A DNA stretch of 33,365 bases from contig JAPPNO010000133.1 of NCBI GenBank assembly GCA_028873845.1, positions 1 to 33,365 on the forward strand, read 5' to 3'. The translations under genes were made by a program, and so were the position numbers. Within the stretch, counting starts at the first letter, position 1, and every line of letters starts with the position of its first letter. Of the stretch, positions 40 to 17,247 are shown piece by piece. Under the pieces are notes generated by a model that saw nothing but the letters and a program-made list of their open reading frames with translations, made no database searches and was not told where the DNA came from. Source of the DNA: Gemmatimonadota bacterium (GTDB taxonomy: Bacteria; Gemmatimonadota; Gemmatimonadetes; Longimicrobiales; Gaopeijiaceae).

Positions 40-816
40 TCATGTCGCGTAGGCGTCACGGTAGATGCGCCACAGCGCCTTGTCGTCGAGGTCGCGGTTG
101 AGGAAGACGTGGCAGGTGGCGAGGACGCCGCGCACCATTTCGGCGGCGGTGGCGGAGAAGTGGACGGGGGCGCCGAGCACGGCCCGGATCTCGGCCAGGT
201 GGCGGTGTCCGGTGGGCTTGTAGGACCGCATCGCGCCGCTCCGCTCGGGGTGGTGGCTGCCGGGGGTGGACCGGTTGCCGGCCTCGCTCGAGCCGACCTT
301 GACCTCGATCACCGCCGAGTCGGCGACGCCCGCGCGGTAGAGGGGACGGAGCGCGAGGATGGAGGCGGTGGCGTTGCAGCCCGCGCAGGCCACGAGGTCG
401 GCGCCGGCGAGGGCGGCCCGGTTGAGTTCGGCGATTCCGTACGTGAAACGGGGGAGGAGGTCGGGGCGGGGATGGGGACGGCCGTAGAAGCGCTCGTATT
501 GGGCGGGGTCGTCGAGGCGGAAGTCGGCGCCGAGGTCGATGATGCGGGGGGCGATCCGGCTGAGGTCGTCGAAGCGGCGTGAGGACTCGCCGTGAGGGAG
601 GCAGAGGAAGAGGACGTCGGACTCGGTGAGTTCATCGAGCGTGTGGAAGCGGAGGCGCGTGAGGGTGCGGAGGTTGGGGTGGGCGCGGTGGGCGTACTTG
701 CCGGCAAGGCGCTCGGAGGTGATCTGGTGGACCTCGGCGTCGGGGTGGGCGAGGAGGAGGCGCAGGAGTTCGCCGCCGGCGTACCCGGAGGCGCCCGCGA
801 TGGAGACGCGGATCAT
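40..816 (-). CDS. lysY: LysY/ArgC-type [LysW]-acyl-phosphate reductase, C-terminally truncated
   Basis: NADPH-dependent reductase of the ArgC/LysY family. It reduces the acyl phosphate made on the LysW-bound substrate (aminoadipate for lysine, glutamate for arginine) to the semialdehyde. Seen: N-terminal Rossmann motif GASGYAGGE (residues 8-16), catalytic Cys147 in [10 protein letters not shown], the GSSEAG stretch typical of the LysY branch (176-180), and a conserved GHRHLAEI (203-210). The ATG at 816 overlaps the lysX stop (ATGA), so the two are translationally coupled. Only 258 residues are present, against about 340 usual. The frame stops right after RIYRDAYAT, where family members continue with a GEPFVR-like segment and about 90 more residues. 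The last 40 bases of the window look compositionally different, so this is either a contig-end artefact or a truly broken gene. Lysine versus arginine specificity cannot be read from the sequence. Confidence 0.85.
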
Positions 817-1649
817 GCGGCCGCCCGCTCCACGAACGCCACGATGCGCTCGGGAATGTCGACGCCCGTCACATCGATGCTGTTGCGGAACTCCATCGTG
901 TAGTTCACCTCGTTCACGAGGAGGCCGTCGGCGCTCTCGAAGAGGTCGACCGCGAGGACCCCGCCGCCGACCGCGGCCGCCGCGCGCAGCGACAGGTCGG
1001 CGAGCTCGGGGGTGACGGGGCAGTTGCCGGCGAGGCCGCCCCGCGCCGTGTTGGTGATCCAGTGCTCCGACGTGCGATGGATCGCGGCCACGCACTCATC
1101 GCCCACCACGAAGCTGCGGATGTCGCGGCCGCCCTTCGCCACGTACTTCTGCACGAAGAAGATCGAGTGGTGGTAGCTGCCCAGGATGGACTTGTGCTCG
1201 AGCACCGTCTCGGCCGCGTCCCGGTCGTTGATCTTCGACAGCAGGCGTCCCCACGAACCCACCGCCGGCTTGAGCACCACCGGATAGCCCAGCTCCTCGA
1301 TCGCGTCCAGCGCGGACTCCGGCGTGAACGCGACCCGCGCATCGGGCTGCGGCACGCTCTCTTCGGCCAGCGAGGCCGCCGTGAGGATCTTGTCGCCGCA
1401 GCGGCGCGATACCTCGTACGCGTTGACGCACGGCGTCCCCGCCCCCTCGAAGAGCCTGAGCGCGTGCATGGCCCGCGAGTGGTTGATGGAGCGTTCCAGC
1501 ACCACATCCACCTCGGGCCGCGCACGGAAGTCGAAGACGAGCCGGCGGTCGTCCAGGAAGACGAGTTCGATGCCGGGGCGCCGCCGCAGTTCCGCGATGA
1601 GGAGCTTCTCATCCTTCCTGATCAGCGAATGAAGAAAGCCGACCCTCAT
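813..1649 (-). CDS. lysX: LysX-type ATP-grasp ligase joining LysW to alpha-aminoadipate or glutamate
   Basis: ATP-grasp ligase of the LysX/ArgX/RimK family. It forms an amide between the C-terminal glutamate of LysW and the amino group of alpha-aminoadipate (lysine route) or glutamate (arginine route), which protects the amine during synthesis. The 278-residue length is normal. Visible ATP-grasp parts are Lys87 in [19 protein letters not shown] (124-135), [17 protein letters not shown] (164-180), WITNTARGG (197-205) and the metal-binding end VDLFE then [13 protein letters not shown] (245-257). The NTARGG and NEVN-TMEF segments resemble Thermus LysX as I remember it, which favours a LysX-like protein. 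ATG at 1649 overlaps the lysW stop by 4 bases, and its own stop overlaps the lysY start. Confidence 0.92.
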
Positions 1650-1920: not shown

Positions 1921-3861
1921 TCAGGCCGGCCCGTCCGACAGCGACGAGGTGGGGATTTCGCGCGCTTCGACCCGCCGCCCCTCGCGCAGCGTGACGTACG
2001 CCTCCATGGCTCGGTAGGCCGGCAGCCCCAGCGACGCCAGGAAATCGGCGGTCCCCCGGTTCCGGTCCACCACGCGCTGCCAGAATTCGCGCGCGTCCGG
2101 CCCCGGGAAGGGCGCGGAGTCCTTCTGCGACTCGTGCTTGAAGATCGCCTGCACCTTGCCGCGCATCTCGTGTTCCGACAGGGGCACCAGCACGGTCGCT
2201 TCGTTCACGCTCCACTCCTGCCAGGCTCCACGGTAGAGCCAGAGCCAGGGCGGGTCGCCGCCGTACCGCTCCAGTGCCCGTTCCACCGTCTGCAGGCACA
2301 TGCGGTGGGTGCCGTGCGGATCCGACAGGTCGCCGGCGGCGAAGACCATCGACGGCCTCACCTCTTCCAGAAGCTCGTGCACGATTGCAACGTCCGCCTC
2401 GGTCACCGGATTCTTGCGGACCTTGCCCGTCTGGTAGAAGGGCAGGTTGAGGAAGCGGGCGCGGTCGGCGGAAAGCCCCAGCGACTCGATCCCCGCGCAC
2501 GCCTCGCTCTCGCGGATGATGCGTTTCAGATGCTGTACGACCTCGGGATCCACATCGCCGGGCTCCTTGCGCGCCAGGCCCTCCTCCACCGACCTCAACA
2601 CGGTTTCCAGGGCCTCGCGGTTCCCCACATCGATCACCCCGGCCGCGCGCCTCATGAAGTCCAGGTACCGGCGCACCTCGTGATCGAATACGGCGATGTT
2701 GCCCGAGGTCTGGTACGCGACCGTCACGTCGTTGCAGTTCTCGGCGAGCTTGCGCAGGAGGCCGCCCATCGAGATCACGTCGTCGTCGGGGTGCGGCGAG
2801 AAGACGAGCATCCTGCGGCCGCGCGGGAGACGGCTCTTGCCGCGGATCTTGGCGATCAGCGCGTTGAAGACCTGTCCGTTGAGCGGCTCCGCCGACCCGT
2901 GACGCGACACCAGCGACCCGAGGTGGTGCTCGCGGTAGTCGTCCGTGGCCAGGTGCAGGATCGGCTTGCCGGTGCGGCGGCTGAGCCAGATGACGGCTTC
3001 GTTCTCCCAGTGCGGCGTCCACTCCACGTCGCCGACCAGCCACGGCGTGCGGATGCGGGTGAGCGCGGCGGCGGCGGCGGGGTCGAGGTAGACGGTGGCG
3101 GCGGGGTGCTGCTGCAGGAAGGTGGCCGCGACATCGGCGTGGACTTCGCCCTCGACGGCCCGCTGCACGATCTCGGCCTTGTGCTCGCCGGTCGCCAGCA
3201 GCACCACCTCGCGCGCGTCCAGGATGGTCGCCACCCCCATCGTGATCGCTCGGGCGGGCACGTTCTCCTCGCCGAAGAAGTCGCCGGCGGCGTCCCCGCG
3301 GGTGACGGTGTCGAGGTAGAGGCAGCGGGTGCGCGATTCGCGTCCCGAACCCGGTTCGTTGAAGCCGATGTGGCCGCTGCGCCCGATGCCGAGGAGTTGC
3401 AGATCGATTCCGCCCGCGTCGCGGATGCGGCGTTCGTAGTCGAGGCAGTGCGCCTCCACGTCGGTTTCGTCCAGGTCGCCGCAGGGGATGTGGCGGTGGG
3501 CGGGGGCGATGTTGACGTGGTCGAAGAGGTGTTCCCGCATGTAGCGGTGGTAGCTGTGAAGGCTGCCGGGCCGCATGGGGAAGTACTCGTCGAGGTTGAA
3601 GGTGACGACGTTGGCGAAGTCGAGGCCCTCGTCGCGGTGCATGCGGATGAGTTCGCGGTAGACGCCTACGGGCGTGGAACCGGTGGCGAGGCCGAGCACG
3701 GCGGTGCGGCCCTCGGCGGCGCGGTCGCGAATGAGGCGCGCGATGCGGCCGGCGACTTCGGCGGCGATGCTGTCGTGGTCGTCGAGGACGCGAACGGCGA
3801 TCCGCTCGCGCCGGGTCAGGTCGGCGGTGGGCATGGGGGTGGGGTGGGCGGGCCTCCCCAT
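1921..3861 (-). CDS. nagB: Glucosamine-6-phosphate deaminase fused to a PIG-L/LmbE deacetylase domain
   Basis: Two-domain protein of about 646 residues. The N-terminal half (about 20-275) is a NagB-type isomerase/deaminase that converts glucosamine-6-phosphate to fructose-6-phosphate and ammonia: phosphate loop LATGSTPVGVYREL (58-71), Asp91 in FNLDEYFPM, and GRSGHIGFNEPGS (160-172). In E. coli NagB the triad is Asp141-His143-Glu148. Here His164 and Glu169 are kept but the Asp position is Ser162. The C-terminal half (about 350-645) is a PIG-L/LmbE zinc deacetylase with SPHPDDD (355-361) and GDLSDPHGTH (510-519). Similar fusions are known from Bacteroidetes. I infer that the second domain acts on an N-acetylated amino sugar, perhaps the step before deamination. 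The start is uncertain: TTG 3864, ATG 3861 or ATG 3834. It lies 7 bases after the M16 protease stop, so co-transcription is likely. Confidence 0.88.
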   Translation of the reverse strand: MGRPAHPTPMPTADLTRRERIAVRVLDDHDSIAAEVAGRIARLIRDRAAEGRTAVLGLATGSTPVGVYRELIRMHRDEGLDFANVVTFNLDEYFPMRPGSLHSYHRYMREHLFDHVNIAPAHRHIPCGDLDETDVEAHCLDYERRIRDAGGIDLQLLGIGRSGHIGFNEPGSGRESRTRCLYLDTVTRGDAAGDFFGEENVPARAITMGVATILDAREVVLLATGEHKAEIVQRAVEGEVHADVAATFLQQHPAATVYLDPAAAAALTRIRTPWLVGDVEWTPHWENEAVIWLSRRTGKPILHLATDDYREHHLGSLVSRHGSAEPLNGQVFNALIAKIRGKSRLPRGRRMLVFSPHPDDDVISMGGLLRKLAENCNDVTVAYQTSGNIAVFDHEVRRYLDFMRRAAGVIDVGNREALETVLRSVEEGLARKEPGDVDPEVVQHLKRIIRESEACAGIESLGLSADRARFLNLPFYQTGKVRKNPVTEADVAIVHELLEEVRPSMVFAAGDLSDPHGTHRMCLQTVERALERYGGDPPWLWLYRGAWQEWSVNEATVLVPLSEHEMRGKVQAIFKHESQKDSAPFPGPDAREFWQRVVDRNRGTADFLASLGLPAYRAMEAYVTLREGRRVEAREIPTSSLSDGPA

Positions 3862-3868
3862 CAAGGCG

Positions 3869-6757
3869 TTACGGGATCTTCCTCTCCGGCAGCAGCACGA
3901 ACTTGGCGTACTGGTCCAGCCGCAGATAGCGCATGGCGGCCTGTTTCACCTGCTCGGCGGTCCAGCTCTCGATCCGGTCGTACGACGGGATCCTGCGGAT
4001 GTCCATCCCGGCTTGTTCGTACGCTCTGAGCTGGCCGTGCCAATAGCCGTTCTGTTCCAGGTTGGTCTCCTTGGAGCGCCGGTCGGTCTCGCGCACCTTG
4101 GCGACCGTCTCCGGGTCCGGCCCTTCGGTCTTCAGACGCTCGATCTCGTCGAAGACGACCGCAGCCAGCTCTTCGGCGCGCTCGGGGTCGGAACCGAACT
4201 GGACGGTGATCTGGTACTCCTCGTCGGGCCGGTACGAAAGAGACGACGAAACGCCCACGCCGTAGGTGCCGCCCAGATCTTCGCGGAGCGACTCGCGCAA
4301 CTCGATGCGGAGAATGCTCGCCATCGCCGTGAGCGTCGTCGATTCCTCGATGGAATACTCGGCGTCGCCGGCAAAGATGATCTGCGTCTGGCTCTGCGGC
4401 TCCAGTCCCTTGTGTATGACCTTCTCAATCACCCCGGCGGGGGGATCGATCCCGTGGTCCACCCACATCTCCTCGCGGCCGAGGTTGGGCAGCCCGCCCA
4501 GCCAGGTCTCGACCAGCGGCCGGATGCCGTCAATATCGAAGGCTCCCACGAAGTAGAAGGAGAAATCCGACGCGTCCGCGAAGCGGTCCCGGTAGAAGTC
4601 CATTGCCACATCGAGATCCGCATTCTGTACCGCCTCCAGTACCTGGGCCATGGAGCCCCCGGCCCGCGGGTGTCCCTGGCTCATGGTGCTCGCCACGGTA
4701 TCCAGCATGACGAACTGGGGCATGGCGCCCATGTTGGCCATCGCGGCCATCTGCGTCTTGAAGGCCGCGAATGCGTCCTCGTCCTTTCTGGGAGCCGTGA
4801 AATACAGGTAGATGAGCTGAAACGCCGTCTCCAGGTCCTGCGGGGACGCCCGGCCGCCGATCCCCTCGGTGAGCTGTCCGATCGATGGTGACACCGAGGC
4901 CTGCTTCCCGGTCAGCTTGTTGCGCAAATCGATCTGGCCGAACTCCCCGACACCCCCCTGCCCCACCGCCTGGATCGCGATCTCCGCATCCATGAAGGTC
5001 TCGTCGGATGCCAGCGAAGTCCCCCCGGGGCTCGTGGCCGAGAAGAGGACCTCGTCGTCCTTGAAGTCGGTGGGTTTCAGCACGACCCGCACGCCGTTCT
5101 CGAGCTCCCAGATCGTGACGCCGATCTCGTCCACCGCCTCTTCCGAGACCACCGGAGAACCCCCGGGGACCTCGGCGACCAGCGGCGCTTCGACCTCGGT
5201 GAACTCGTACGCCGCGATCTCGGTCCCCGCGACCGCCGCGAAGACGGCATTCATCTCCTCCTCGGTCGGCACCTCGTTGCCCTCCTTCTCGGGTCCCGAG
5301 ACGAGGATCACCCGGCCCTCTTCCTGCATCCACTCGTGTCCCACCGCATTGACCTCCTCGAGGGTGATCCCGGGGAGCAGGGCGTCCACCAGCTGCTTTT
5401 CCACTTCGACGGCGGGATACGGAGTGCCCCGCAGGAAGACGTTGATGTAGCGGCTGGCGAGCGATCCCGACTCCCGGTTGGCCACCTCGGCCAGCCTGCT
5501 TTCGTAGCTCCTGGCAAGCGCGGTCTTCTGTCTCGCCAGCTCACCGGCGGTGAAACCGTGGCGTGCGACCCGTTCCGCTTCGGTGAGGACGGTCTCGATT
5601 CCCCGCAGGAAGCCGTTGTCGGCGACGTTGGCGGACAGTTGGGCCGCGTTCATATTGCGCGAGAACCCTCCGCTCAGGCCGACCCCGGCGCCGAGGAACG
5701 GCGGGTCCGCCTGCAACGTCAACTCGGACAGCCTGCGGCTGATCATGCCGCCGTACAGCGACCGGACGCGGGCGCTGCGGAAGTCACCCACGGTCCCCTG
5801 CGAATTCATAGGCCGCTTGTACATCACCTGGACCTGGTTGAACGGCAACTCCGGGTCGGTGGTGATCGAGATGAGCGGACCGTGGTCGATCGGGACTTCC
5901 GCTTCGGTCCTGGGACGCGGATCGGCCGGGTTCTGCAACTCGCCGAACCGCTCCCGGATCGTCGCCTCGATCGCGGTGGGGTCGAAGTCGCCCACGGCGA
6001 TGATGGCCATCAGGTCCGGCCGGTACCAGTCTTCGTAGAAGCTCCGCAGCCGTTCCGCGGGCGCGGTGCGGAGGATTTCGGGATCCCCGATCGGGAGCCG
6101 GTCGGCGTAGTGCGATCCGTGCAGCATGAACGGAAACTGCTGGTCCTGGATCCGCGCCTGGCCCCCGCGCCGTCCGCGCCACTCCTCGATCACGACTCCG
6201 CGCTCCTTGTCGACCTCTTCCGGATCGAACTGGACTGCGCTCGCCCAGTCCACCAGGATCTGGAAGGCGGTGGAGAGCACCTCCGGGTCGTCCATCGGGA
6301 CCTGCAGCATGTACACGGTCTCGTCGAAGCTGGTGTAGGCGTTGATGTCGGGCCCGAAGCGCATCCCGATCGACTCGAGGTAGTTCACCAGCGCCTGCTT
6401 CTCGAAGTTCTCCGTGCCGTTGAAGGCCATGTGCTCGACGAAGTGCGCCAGTCCGAGCTGGTCGTCGTCCTCCAGGATCGAACCCGCGTTGACCACGAGG
6501 CGCAGTTCGGCCCGGTTTTCCGGCTGGTCGTTCTGGTGGATGAAGAAGGTGAGCCCGTTGTCGAGCGTGCCGGTGACGACGGCGGGGTCGGGCGGGATGG
6601 GGGCGTCCATGGGGGCCTGGGCCGAGACGTCGGCAGTGCACAGCAGTACGGCGGCCGCGGCCAGCGTGAACAGCCCGCCCACTCCGGCGCCGACCGCTTC
6701 CTCTCGGCAGGCTGCACGGAACATGGGCACGGAGGCCGGAAAACGCGTGTCAAACAT
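3869..6757 (-). CDS. Secreted M16-family zinc metalloprotease, tandem-domain
   Basis: A 962-residue M16 (pitrilysin/insulinase-like) peptidase. The inverted zinc motif HFVEH is at 105-109, followed by MAFNGTENF, and the distal Glu ligand lies in the VVIEEWRGRRGG region (around 185). A second M16 half from about 480 onward lacks the motif, as in family members where both halves form a clamp around the peptide. The N-terminus has a hydrophobic stretch ending in VSAQA (about 27-48), a signal peptide, so the protein acts in the periplasm or outer envelope. Start ATG 6757 was chosen because AAAGGA lies about 8 bases upstream and it gives a proper signal peptide; in-frame codons further up to 6856 lack both. 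The 7-base gap to the NagB fusion suggests a joint transcript for peptide and amino-sugar salvage, which is inference. Confidence 0.9.
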   Translation of the reverse strand: MFDTRFPASVPMFRAACREEAVGAGVGGLFTLAAAAVLLCTADVSAQAPMDAPIPPDPAVVTGTLDNGLTFFIHQNDQPENRAELRLVVNAGSILEDDDQLGLAHFVEHMAFNGTENFEKQALVNYLESIGMRFGPDINAYTSFDETVYMLQVPMDDPEVLSTAFQILVDWASAVQFDPEEVDKERGVVIEEWRGRRGGQARIQDQQFPFMLHGSHYADRLPIGDPEILRTAPAERLRSFYEDWYRPDLMAIIAVGDFDPTAIEATIRERFGELQNPADPRPRTEAEVPIDHGPLISITTDPELPFNQVQVMYKRPMNSQGTVGDFRSARVRSLYGGMISRRLSELTLQADPPFLGAGVGLSGGFSRNMNAAQLSANVADNGFLRGIETVLTEAERVARHGFTAGELARQKTALARSYESRLAEVANRESGSLASRYINVFLRGTPYPAVEVEKQLVDALLPGITLEEVNAVGHEWMQEEGRVILVSGPEKEGNEVPTEEEMNAVFAAVAGTEIAAYEFTEVEAPLVAEVPGGSPVVSEEAVDEIGVTIWELENGVRVVLKPTDFKDDEVLFSATSPGGTSLASDETFMDAEIAIQAVGQGGVGEFGQIDLRNKLTGKQASVSPSIGQLTEGIGGRASPQDLETAFQLIYLYFTAPRKDEDAFAAFKTQMAAMANMGAMPQFVMLDTVASTMSQGHPRAGGSMAQVLEAVQNADLDVAMDFYRDRFADASDFSFYFVGAFDIDGIRPLVETWLGGLPNLGREEMWVDHGIDPPAGVIEKVIHKGLEPQSQTQIIFAGDAEYSIEESTTLTAMASILRIELRESLREDLGGTYGVGVSSSLSYRPDEEYQITVQFGSDPERAEELAAVVFDEIERLKTEGPDPETVAKVRETDRRSKETNLEQNGYWHGQLRAYEQAGMDIRRIPSYDRIESWTAEQVKQAAMRYLRLDQYAKFVLLPERKIP

Positions 6758-6873
6758 GAGTGTCCTTTCTGCGACGGGATTCGCTTGTCGACGGTCGGGA
6801 CGGACCGGGTACGGGAAGCGCGCAGGCCAGACCGTGGGTACGCGCTGACACCCCATTTATTGCGAGCACGGTG

Positions 6874-13635: not shown

Positions 13636-14580
13636 TCAGTCTTCATGCAAGTCGACGACCCCCCTGAAGTAAGGGATCGTCTTTCTGACGCCCTCGCGCA
13701 ACCCGATGGTTGGCCTCCACCCGAGTTCCCGGCGCGCGACGGTGATATCCGGGCAGCGCACGACTGGATCGTCGGGCGGTAGCGGCAGGAACACGGGAGC
13801 GGCCTTGCTGCCCGTCTCCTGGCCGACGATGACGGCCAGATCCAGGATCGTGAATTCGCCCGGGTTGCCGATGTTGACCGGATCGACACGCTCCGAACGA
13901 AAGAGCCGCACGATGCCCTCGACCTGGTCGTCCACATGGCAGAAGGATCGGGTCTGCTCACCGGTGCCGTAGATCGTCATGGACTGACCGCGCAGCCCCT
14001 GCACGATGAAGTTGGAGACGACCCGCCCGTCCGAGGGCCGCATGCGGGCACCGTAGGTGTTGAAGATTCTCACAATTCGCGTCTCCAGCGAGTGAGCCCT
14101 GTGGTAGGCCATGGTCATCGCCTCGGCGTACCGTTTCGCTTCGTCGTATACACTTCTCGGCCCCACGGGATTCACGTTCCCCCAGTAGTCTTCGGTCTGC
14201 GGGTGGACCTTGGGGTCTCCGTAGACCTCGGAGGTCGAGGCGAGCAGGAAGCGGGCGCCGTGCCGGCGGGCGACGCCCAGGGCGTGGTGCGTACCGAGTC
14301 CCCCCACCTTGAGCGTCTGGATCGGAAGCGCCGTGTAGTCGACGGGGCTGGCGGGAGACGCGAAGTGCAGGACACCGTCCACCTTCGGCTCCACGACGAG
14401 CGGGGTGGAGATGTCGTGCTCGATCAGCTCGAAACGGGGCTCCCGCTCGAGGTGCTCCAGGTTGTTCCGGGAGCCGGTAACGAGGTTGTCGACCCCGATC
14501 ACCTCGCATCCGTCCGCCAGAAAGCGGTCCACGAGGTGGGATCCGAGAAAACCCGCCGCGCCGGTGATCAGGATACGCAC
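13636..14580 (-). CDS. uxs: UDP-glucuronate decarboxylase (UDP-xylose synthase), SDR family
   Basis: Extended short-chain dehydrogenase that uses bound NAD to decarboxylate UDP-glucuronate to UDP-xylose. Seen: GAAGFLG (7-13), [10 protein letters not shown] (73-82), a hallmark of UXS proteins, [10 protein letters not shown] (114-123), [19 protein letters not shown] with the catalytic Tyr145 and Lys149, and IGNPGEFTI near the C-terminus. The 314-residue length matches the family. Start GTG 14580 gives a protein opening [11 protein letters not shown] and has GGGAG about 6 bases upstream; it overlaps the upstream dehydrogenase by 13 bases. Its substrate is the product of that neighbour, so the two form a short pathway. 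A dTDP-glucose dehydratase is less likely given the ASPASP motif. Confidence 0.9.
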
Positions 14581-15908
14581 GGGCTGCTCCCGGGCCTCGG
14601 GATCACCGCACGGCGCCCGACCGAATAGTACTCGAACCCGAGCGCGCGCATGGCCCGGGGCGAATAGAGATTGCGGCCGTCCAGGATCACCGCCCGGGCA
14701 AGCAGCGTCCGCATCCGGGCGAAGTCGGGGTGGCGGTACGGGTGCCACTCCGTATGGATGAAAAGGGCATCCGCACCCTCAAGGGCATCGTAGTTGTGCT
14801 CGCGGTACTCGATGGCGTCGCCGAGAATGCGCCGGGCCTCGCCGGCCGCAGCGGGGTCGTGTGCGACGACCCTCGCGCCCCGCTCCAGCAGGGCGCGAAT
14901 CGTGACCAGGCTGGGAGCCTCGCGCATGTCGTCGGTGTTCGGCTTGAACGCCAGGCCCCACACCGCAAAGGTGCGGCCCCGCAGGTCCTCGCCGAACCGC
15001 TCGACCGCCAACTTCACCAGAAGACGTTTCTGGCGCTCGTTGACCTGCTCCACCGAATCCAGGATGGACGCGTCCAGCTCCAGTTCCCTCATGGTCGAGG
15101 CCAGGGCCCTGACGTCCTTGGGAAAGCACGAACCCCCGTACCCGACCCCGGGAAACAGGTACGTCGGGCCGATGCGGCGATCCGAACCGATGCCGTGGCG
15201 CACCTGGTCCACGTCGGCGCCCGTGCGTTCGCACAGCCGCCCGATCGCGTTCATGAAGCTGATGCGCGTGGCCAGCATGGCATTCGCCGCGTACTTGGTG
15301 ATCTCGGCCGAGGCGACGTCCATCACCTGAATCTCGTTCCCGGTTCGCACGAAGGGTGCGTAGAGGTCGCGCAACACCCGGGCCGGCCCGGGGTCGTCGA
15401 CCCCCAGCACCACGCGGTCGGGCTTCTGGAAATCGCTCACCGCGGCCCCCTCCCGGAGGAACTCGGGATTGGAGCACACATGCACCGGGTGATCCGTCTC
15501 GGCTTCGATCGCCGCACGCACCCGCCGCGCGGTCCCCACCGGCACGGTGCTCTTCGTGATCACGATGCGTTCGGCGTCCATGGCGCGCCCGATTTCGCGC
15601 GCGGCGGCGAGCACGTACTGCAGATCGGCGGATCCGTCGTCTCCCGGCGGCGTCCCCACCGCGATGAAGACGATGCGCGATGCGCGCACGGCCCCCGACA
15701 CGTCCGTCGTGAACCTCAGCCGTCCCTCGGCGAGGTTGCGCGACACGAGCGCGCCCAACCCCGGCTCGAAGATCGGGACTTCACCCCGCTTGAGGGTCTC
15801 GACGCGCTCCTTCAGTATGTCCACGCAGATGACGTCATTCCCCGTCTCCGCCAGACAGGCGCCGGTCGTCAGCCCCACGTAGCCGCTCCCCAGTATCGCG
15901 ATCTTCAT
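14568..15908 (-). CDS. ugd: UDP-glucose 6-dehydrogenase
   Basis: NAD-dependent two-step oxidation of UDP-glucose to UDP-glucuronate. The 446-residue protein has the N-terminal Rossmann motif [14 protein letters not shown] (7-20), [12 protein letters not shown] (120-131), [11 protein letters not shown] (146-156), the catalytic Cys261 in [12 protein letters not shown], and the C-terminal NAD/UDP domain with [17 protein letters not shown]. It starts 10 bases after the preceding dehydrogenase and feeds the decarboxylase that follows. Together they point to uronate- or pentose-containing surface polysaccharide. Confidence 0.95.
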
Positions 15909-15918
15909 CGGCGCGTGG

Positions 15919-17247
15919 TCACCCCTTCACGATCCACCGCTGCGGGTGGACGGCGCGCTGGGCGGCCGCCACCGACGCCGTCGCGTTGCGCGCGTCCACC
16001 ACCACGTGCGAGAGGGAAACGATCCGGGCCATGTCGAAGCAGGAGTGGTCGGTGACGATCACCGTCGCGTCGATTCCCTGCAGCAGCCCGCCGGTGAGAC
16101 GGGCGGACGTGAGCGTGCGGCCGTCCCTGGTGCCCCAGGCCGGCACATGGGGGTCATGGTACAGCACCTCGGCGCCGTCGCGCTCCAGGTGCTCCAGGAT
16201 GTCCATTGCGGGTGACTCCCGCACGTCTCCCACGTTCTTCTTGTAGGCCACTCCGAGCAGCATGATCCTCGAGCCCTTGACCGGCTTCCCCACCCCGTTC
16301 AGCGCCTCCCTTACCTTGCCGGCCACAAAGGTCGGCATCTCGGCATTGATCTCGGAGGCCATGTCGATGAGGCGGGTGCGGTAGTCCATCTTCCGCATCT
16401 TCCAGGACAGGTAGTGGGGATCCACGGGAAGGCAGTGCCCGCCGAGCCCGGGACCCGGCGTGAACTTCATGAACCCGAAGGGCTTCGTGTCGGCGGCCTC
16501 GATCACCTCCCAGATGTTCAGTCCGAGCCGGTCGGCAATCAGGGCCATTTCGTTGGCGAGACCGATGTTGACCGCCCGGAAGGCGTTCTCGAGGATCTTG
16601 GTGAGCTCCGCGGCCTCCGCGGAGGAAACGGGGACCATGCGTTCCACGAAACGCGAGTAGAACGCGGTGCCCGCCTCCGTGCATTCGGGTGTCACGCCCC
16701 CGATGATCTTCGGTGTGTTGCCGGTCTTCCAGACTTCGTTGCCGGGATCCACCCGTTCCGGTGAAAAGCAGAGAAAGAAGTCCTTCCCGACCTCCAGACC
16801 GCTTCGGGCCAGAATCGGGAGCACCACCTCGCGCGTCGTGCCCGGGTACGTCGTCGACTCCAGGACCACGAGCTGCCCTTCGGCCAGAGCGGCACCCACC
16901 GCCTCGGCGGCGGCCAGGACGTGCGAGATGTCCGGATCGCGGGTCGTGGAGAGCGGAGTGGGCACACAGATCGCGACCGCATCACAGTCATTCAGCCGCG
17001 ACATGTCGGTCGTGGCCGCCAGCAGGGCACTCCCGACGAGACCGCCCACCGCGTCGTCGGACAGGTCCTGGATGTGGCTGCGCCCCGCGTTGACCCCGTC
17101 CACGACGCGCGGGTCCACGTCGAAGCCGAGCACACCGATTCCGTTCCGGGCCGCTTCGACCCCGAGCGGCAACCCGACGTAGCCCAGCCCGACCACACCG
17201 AGCGTGGCGTCGCCGGAGCGAATCCTCGACAGCCTGGACTTGCTCAC
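15919..17247 (-). CDS. Nucleotide-sugar dehydrogenase, WbpA/TviB-like (UDP-HexNAc 6-dehydrogenase)
   Basis: A 442-residue member of the UDP-glucose/GDP-mannose dehydrogenase superfamily, distinct from the ugd next to it. Seen: VVGLGYVGLPLG (18-29), ESTTYPGTT (130-138), SPERVDPGN (162-170), and the catalytic Cys272 in GLGGHCLPVDPHYL, the form found in UDP-GlcNAc/UDP-ManNAc dehydrogenases rather than the GGSCFPKD of ugd. VAYKKNVGDVRESP marks the C-terminal domain. The likely product is a UDP-N-acetylhexosaminuronate for capsule or O-antigen. GTG start at 17247. It heads the run that continues to radC; the exact hexosamine is not decidable here. Confidence 0.88.
   Translation of the reverse strand: MSKSRLSRIRSGDATLGVVGLGYVGLPLGVEAARNGIGVLGFDVDPRVVDGVNAGRSHIQDLSDDAVGGLVGSALLAATTDMSRLNDCDAVAICVPTPLSTTRDPDISHVLAAAEAVGAALAEGQLVVLESTTYPGTTREVVLPILARSGLEVGKDFFLCFSPERVDPGNEVWKTGNTPKIIGGVTPECTEAGTAFYSRFVERMVPVSSAEAAELTKILENAFRAVNIGLANEMALIADRLGLNIWEVIEAADTKPFGFMKFTPGPGLGGHCLPVDPHYLSWKMRKMDYRTRLIDMASEINAEMPTFVAGKVREALNGVGKPVKGSRIMLLGVAYKKNVGDVRESPAMDILEHLERDGAEVLYHDPHVPAWGTRDGRTLTSARLTGGLLQGIDATVIVTDHSCFDMARIVSLSHVVVDARNATASVAAAQRAVHPQRWIVKG

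Follow-up and report, generated by a model that had tools for sequence, protein, structure and literature searches.

What is the function of a protein that joins a glucosamine-6-phosphate (GlcN-6-P) deaminase domain (NagB) to a PIG-L de-N-acetylase domain, and does a serine in its deaminase half alter the chemistry? These questions are raised by a gene in the window, the 33,365-nucleotide stretch of Gemmatimonadota DNA analyzed here. An earlier note on this DNA had described a NagB/PIG-L fusion in which Ser162 occupies the position of E. coli Asp141, the equivalents Asp91, His164, and Glu169 are retained, and the zinc deacetylase motifs SPHPDDD and DPHGTH are intact. Translation and alignment confirmed the fusion, the serine, and the three retained residues, and both metal motifs were present in the translation. 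The note named no strand; the gene is encoded on the minus strand, and the plus strand at 1921-3861 contains only a spurious open frame. The reading frame begins with ATG at 3861 and its stop codon ends at 1921, and a TTG at 3864, one codon upstream, is also a possible start. The features, numbered from the ATG, are as follows.

1921..3861, minus strand: NagB/PIG-L fusion gene, 646 aa (NF002557, 884.8 bits; Pfam; AlphaFold2 model)
3058..3801, minus strand: NagB domain, residues 21-268 (VIA-align to 2bkv, Z 38.1)
3349..3384, minus strand: NagB active-site motif GRSGHIGFNEPG, residues 160-171 (translation and alignments)
3376..3378, minus strand: Ser162 codon, at the E. coli Asp141 position (translation and alignment)
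2821..3054, minus strand: helical interdomain connector, residues 270-347 (within NF002557; AlphaFold2 model)
1960..2820, minus strand: PIG-L/LmbE de-N-acetylase domain, residues 348-634 (PF02585; BshB 6p2t, Z 23.1; Dac 3wl4, Z 21.3)
2779..2799, minus strand: zinc/catalytic motif SPHPDDD, residues 355-361 (H357, D359, and D360 invariant in 80/80 fusions)
2305..2322, minus strand: second metal-site motif DPHGTH, residues 514-519 (D514, H516, and H519 invariant in 80/80 fusions)

The inspected motifs are D91, G160-R161-S162-G163-H164, E169, S355PHPDDD361, and D514PHGTH519. Pfam placed Glucosamine_iso (PF01182, E 3.9e-25) first and PIG-L (PF02585, E 1.4e-17, 64.9 bits against a cut-off of 28.2) second. 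The NagB model TIGR00502 scored 247.5 bits (cut-off 236.9), with the equivalents of its Asp72, His143, and Glu148 all present as D91, H164, and E169, and the H-x-D-D plus distal His pattern of PIG-L was present as H357, D359, D360, and H519. No match to the NagA model TIGR00221 was found in an NCBIfam profile scan of the protein. The full-length match was to NF002557 (884.8 bits against a curated cut-off of 384; E 2.9e-266; model positions 20-650 of 653). Judged by this match, the window gene is a member of an already catalogued family, NF002557/PRK02122.1, 'glucosamine-6-phosphate deaminase-like protein', which has the same two-domain layout and from which nothing in its sequence sets the window protein apart. 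The family name assigns no function to the PIG-L half. In the open-licence literature, we found no paper naming PRK02122 and no assignment of function to the PIG-L half of a NagB-PIG-L fusion; the available portions of PMC5583593 and PMC9812318 contain no mention of such a fusion.

An AlphaFold2 model of the fusion, built from a 66-sequence alignment, had a pLDDT of 90.5 and a pTM of 0.85. In this model, the predicted NagB half was closest among PDB entries to B. subtilis NagB (2bkv; Z 38.1, 1.1 A over 242 residues, 42% identity), with the human and E. coli enzymes about equally near (E. coli 1dea, Z 37.7). It shares with NagB (TIGR00502; 2bkv, 1dea) the fold, the D91/H164/E169 equivalents, and the phosphate loop but differs by the serine at the Asp141 place, the fused deacetylase, and the connector. 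The modeled PIG-L half was nearest in fold to BshB (6p2t, Z 23.1), followed by diacetylchitobiose deacetylase (Z ~21), and a profile built from this half alone ranked diacetylchitobiose deacetylases first among solved chains. Its fold and metal motifs are common to the PIG-L/LmbE de-N-acetylases BshB, diacetylchitobiose deacetylase, and MshB, but it is only 15-22% identical to the solved structures and its expected substrate is phosphorylated. The family also has conserved stretches of its own, YRGAWQEW and SQKDxAxFPGxDxREFW, that set it apart from other PIG-L/LmbE proteins. Assignment as a bacillithiol deacetylase was rejected, the scores against BshB1 and BshB2 (TIGR04001/TIGR04000) being 25.1/26.1 bits, far below the cut-offs of 182.5/195.25.

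The residue at the E. coli Asp141 position was then compared between fusions and stand-alone NagBs, an alignment that the earlier note had proposed. All 31 same-phylum sequences (30 fusions plus the window) had Ser or Thr. In an alignment of 80 full-length fusions, consisting of the window and 79 of 80 loci whose record titles name Gemmatimonadota, Bacteroidota, Planctomycetota, and Ignavibacteria, the position was Thr in 67, Ser in 9, Arg in 2, Asn in 1, and a gap in 1. Across all 126 rows of type I fusions (a second type is described below), Thr was found in 103, Ser in 15, and Asn in 4, with 4 unreadable or degraded. Among 52 stand-alone NagB rows, by contrast, 32 had Asn (including L171, a broken fusion) and 19 had Asp, one was unread, and none had Ser or Thr. 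B. subtilis NagB (2bkv, entitled 'Structure and kinetics of a monomeric glucosamine-6-phosphate deaminase') has Asn at this position, within the sequence GRNGH. In a quick tree with many unresolved forks, covering 112 of 183 rows (55 of the 126 type I fusions), the fusions formed one group except for three stand-alone rows within it (L167, L168, and L171). L171 (L171:2-883) is a NagB-like frame with Asn at the Asp141 place; because its frame, lying at a contig end, is interrupted at the start of the fusion connector, it is probably a broken fusion gene and was rejected as a stand-alone NagB, although it is still counted among the 32 Asn rows and in the tree.

Since 118/126 fusions have Ser or Thr and none of the readable stand-alone NagBs do, this residue is, on the evidence of the alignments, a mark of the type I fusion clade. 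The Arg-Ser/Thr-Gly-His form that the earlier note ascribed to Bacteroidetes fusions is real and, as the note suggested, delimits a subfamily. The claim that a triad Asp has been lost is not supported by the comparison, because stand-alone NagBs, including that of B. subtilis, have Asn more often than Asp. Judging from these rows, NagBs usually have either Asp, the E. coli/human-type state, or Asn at this position; Asp141 is no invariant of the family and should not be taken as a universal catalytic residue. By analogy with Asn in B. subtilis NagB, Ser162 most likely leaves the deaminase working. A change to another sugar phosphate, pH, or allosteric behavior would fit the confinement of Ser/Thr to the fusion clade, but the prevalence of Asn in stand-alone NagBs, the occurrence of Asn in some fusions, and the retention of the other inspected catalytic residues in nearly all of them make altered chemistry very improbable, and we rejected it.

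Regarding the protein as a whole, we consider it likely that the fusion is a cytoplasmic bifunctional enzyme, a GlcNAc-6-P deacetylase and GlcN-6-P deaminase that replaces NagA in amino-sugar salvage, chiefly from recycled peptidoglycan; its substrate, both activities, its location, and the hand-over between domains are what we infer. GlcNAc-6-P would be supplied from MurNAc-6-P via MurQ and from GlcNAc via a BadF/NagK-type kinase. The PIG-L domain would then remove the acetyl group from GlcNAc-6-P in place of NagA, and the NagB domain would convert the resulting GlcN-6-P, possibly handed over between the domains, into fructose-6-P and ammonia, the overall products being fructose-6-P, ammonia, and acetate. 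The proposed deacetylation is the same reaction as that of NagA (TIGR00221), which has an amidohydrolase fold unrelated to the PIG-L fold. The nearest solved PIG-L relatives (diacetylchitobiose deacetylase, BshB, and Dac) act on GlcNAc units, which is consistent with this role.

A NagA replacement had also been proposed in the earlier note, with a search of the genome for nagA. In the window's own genome (96.5% complete), the fusion gene was the single PF01182 match, and a TIGR00221 search found no convincing NagA, the best of nine weak matches having an E of 5.5e-6 and none exceeding the cut-off. In a sample of 200 Gemmatimonadota genomes, the fusion exceeded the cut-off in 125, all among 194 genomes of the same class, and NagA exceeded its cut-off in 0/200. 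NagA-like matches better than 1e-25 were confined to 6 genomes of another class, which had a stand-alone NagB (280-293 bits) and lacked both the fusion and a real MurQ; none occurred in the other 194. This pattern is a class-level swap, which kinship alone could partly account for. The Bacteroidota sample (148 genomes, with no taxonomy below phylum level) is more telling on the missing NagA. Of its 56 genomes with the fusion, 43 had no convincing NagA and 13 had one, compared with NagA in 8/12 genomes with a stand-alone NagB only (Fisher p 0.006, uncorrected for kinship). The coexistence of a NagA-like gene with the fusion in these 13/56 genomes, and in 11/49 of the genomes behind the wider loci (E < 1e-50), counts against the bifunctional enzyme.

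MurQ converts MurNAc-6-P to GlcNAc-6-P. It was present in all 181 fusion genomes of both samples (125 Gemmatimonadota and 56 Bacteroidota). In Bacteroidota, it was found in 56/56 genomes with the fusion versus 49/92 without (p 1.2e-11, uncorrected for kinship). In the 194-genome Gemmatimonadota class, all 8 genomes lacking MurQ also lacked the fusion (Fisher p 1.9e-4, uncorrected for kinship); in this tally, G191, with a partial match (E 3.8e-39), was scored absent and is one of the 8, and G059 and G136, just below the cut-off (E about 1e-81 to 1e-84), were scored present. The window's own genome contained MurQ (E 3.6e-103, contig 130) and one BadF-family (NagK-type) kinase (E 6.7e-26, contig 38), neither of them linked to the fusion. 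A search for AnmK in this genome did not find it, which counts against the proposed salvage role. The lack of a convincing NagA, the presence of MurQ and the kinase family, and the co-occurrence of MurQ with the fusion together lend strong but indirect support to a bifunctional NagA replacement; the part of the earlier note that tied altered chemistry to the serine fails, as described above. MurQ also occurred without NagA or a type I fusion in 39/148 Bacteroidota genomes (8 with the second fusion type, 31 with no fusion of either type) and without the fusion or NagA in 61/194 Gemmatimonadota genomes; another route must therefore exist.

Such genomes may harbor some other deacetylase, and nearly all genomes searched had amidohydrolases that match the NagA model weakly. 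These observations would suit a protein that is a GlcN-6-P deaminase only, with a regulatory or structural PIG-L half and an unrelated amidohydrolase acting on GlcNAc-6-P. A structural role needs no intact metal site, but H357, D359, D360, D514, H516, and H519 were invariant in all 80 full-length fusions and thus more constant than the deaminase residues, so we regard this alternative as quite improbable. The deaminase motif His was lost in L069, L079, and L096 (with a deletion in the first two; L096 also lost Asp91), and in L063 the deaminase motif was degraded and a stand-alone NagB adjoined the gene. The PIG-L residues were intact in all four, and no convincing NagA was found in searches of the L063, L069, and L079 genomes. 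Invariant PIG-L residues alongside occasional loss of deaminase residues count in favor of the bifunctional assignment.

The gene neighborhoods of the fusion were examined in 79 loci with 586 genes called, in which ~0.15 copies of any single-copy gene would be expected; the calls came from a simple codon-usage script that misses genes, and most loci are from few lineages. Near the fusion were MurQ in 8 loci, a BadF/NagK kinase in 10, an SSF sodium symporter in 13, and AmpG in 5, and these salvage neighbors also support the bifunctional assignment. The kinase was on the strand of the fusion in 9/10 loci, and these nine run in the order fusion, symporter, kinase. In 9 loci, the symporter that precedes the kinase has its start 6-42 nt past the fusion, and in 1 it overlaps the fusion. 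For the kinase of L041, the nearest model was NagK NF046058, at 104 bits, below the cut-off of 370. In the window, the neighbors of the fusion (M16 peptidase, LysX-like, and ArgC) include no salvage genes, which counts against the assignment.

The M16-type peptidase gene of the window (3869-6856, minus strand) ends 4-7 nt before the fusion start, and the same gene lies ahead of the fusion in L037 and L040. Downstream of the fusion, a LysX-like ATP-grasp ligase gene (328 bits, cut-off 275.6) and ArgC lie next to each other (40-1649, minus strand). A link to lysine/arginine synthesis was rejected: LysX follows the fusion in 3/7 near relatives (L037, L038, and L040) but is no recurrent neighbor in other lineages.

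The closest solved PIG-L relatives, diacetylchitobiose deacetylase and BshB, act on unphosphorylated sugars, and archaeal chitin breakdown proceeds by deacetylation of an unphosphorylated sugar and separate phosphorylation. On this precedent, the PIG-L half could act on free GlcNAc, diacetylchitobiose, an anhydro-muropeptide, or a GlcNAc conjugate, with NagB finishing the route after a separate phosphorylation. We consider this unlikely, as the fusion co-occurs with MurQ, the enzyme that yields GlcNAc-6-P, and lies near a NagK-family kinase, and its joining to a 6-phosphate enzyme suggests a common phosphorylated intermediate. GlcNAc-6-P thus remains the preferred candidate substrate. Deletion of nagB (Fjoh_4557) in F. 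johnsoniae left growth on chitin unaffected, and attempts to express its product failed; in the sections of that report available to us, three further nagB-like genes were counted and a NagA was predicted (PMC5127042). If Fjoh_4557 is a fusion gene, this result counts against the bifunctional enzyme.

If the bifunctional assignment holds, a phylum-wide pathway gap would be filled, with genomes that have MurQ but seemingly no NagA reaching fructose-6-P via one protein. A large family whose present name says no more than 'deaminase-like' would gain a substrate and a pathway. The assignment would also correct metabolic models in which such genomes are scored NagA-negative and provide a defined test case of an unrelated deacetylase fold taking over the NagA reaction.

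A second type of NagB-PIG-L fusion, of ~790 residues, was found in Bacteroidota and Planctomycetota.

L126:6289-8622: second-type fusion
L127:7416-9791: second-type fusion
L128:9426-11780: second-type fusion
L129:11337-13715: second-type fusion
L204:6144-8519: second-type fusion
L205:4575-6941: second-type fusion

The three that were scanned scored 205-227 bits on NF002557, below the cut-off of 384. This type has the domain order of type I, is homologous to it over both halves, and keeps the equivalents of H357, D359, D360, and H519. It differs from the window fusion in keeping Asp141, in having Val/Ile for Glu148, and in lacking the Arg172 equivalent. In nine aligned proteins (L132 is cut off), Asp141 and His143 were kept and Val/Ile replaced Glu148 in all, and none had Arg at 172; HxDD was kept in 9/9 and the distal His (519) in the 8/8 that reach it, and His at 516 was not kept. 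A stand-alone NagB was directly beside the fusion in L127 and L204 and one gene away in L128. The L126 fusion has MurQ on one side and an L-Ala-D/L-Glu epimerase-like gene on the other, and an amidase-like gene is near the fusion in L129 and L205. All four Bacteroidota genomes with a stand-alone NagB but no NagA carried a second-type fusion.

On balance, we lean slightly toward a broader reading, in which the PIG-L family gave a non-orthologous NagA replacement across Gemmatimonadota, Bacteroidota, Planctomycetota, and their relatives, in the form of a fused peptidoglycan-salvage enzyme of two types. In the second type and a few first-type members, the fused deaminase would have decayed and a neighboring NagB taken over; the deacetylase half would therefore be the indispensable part.

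In L128, an ADP-forming acetyl-CoA ligase-like gene (L128:6970-9090, minus strand; PF13607, PF13549) lies between the stand-alone NagB and the second-type fusion, and its product could use acetate released by the deacetylase. A DUF4954/DUF6819 protein gene adjoins the stand-alone NagB in L127 (L127:4441-6423) and L128 (L128:4078-6063); GH94 and GH18 genes were further noted in L127. Elsewhere in the window (13636-17247, minus strand), an NAD-dependent sugar epimerase/decarboxylase-like gene and two nucleotide-sugar dehydrogenase-like genes, as read from their translations, lie in a row.
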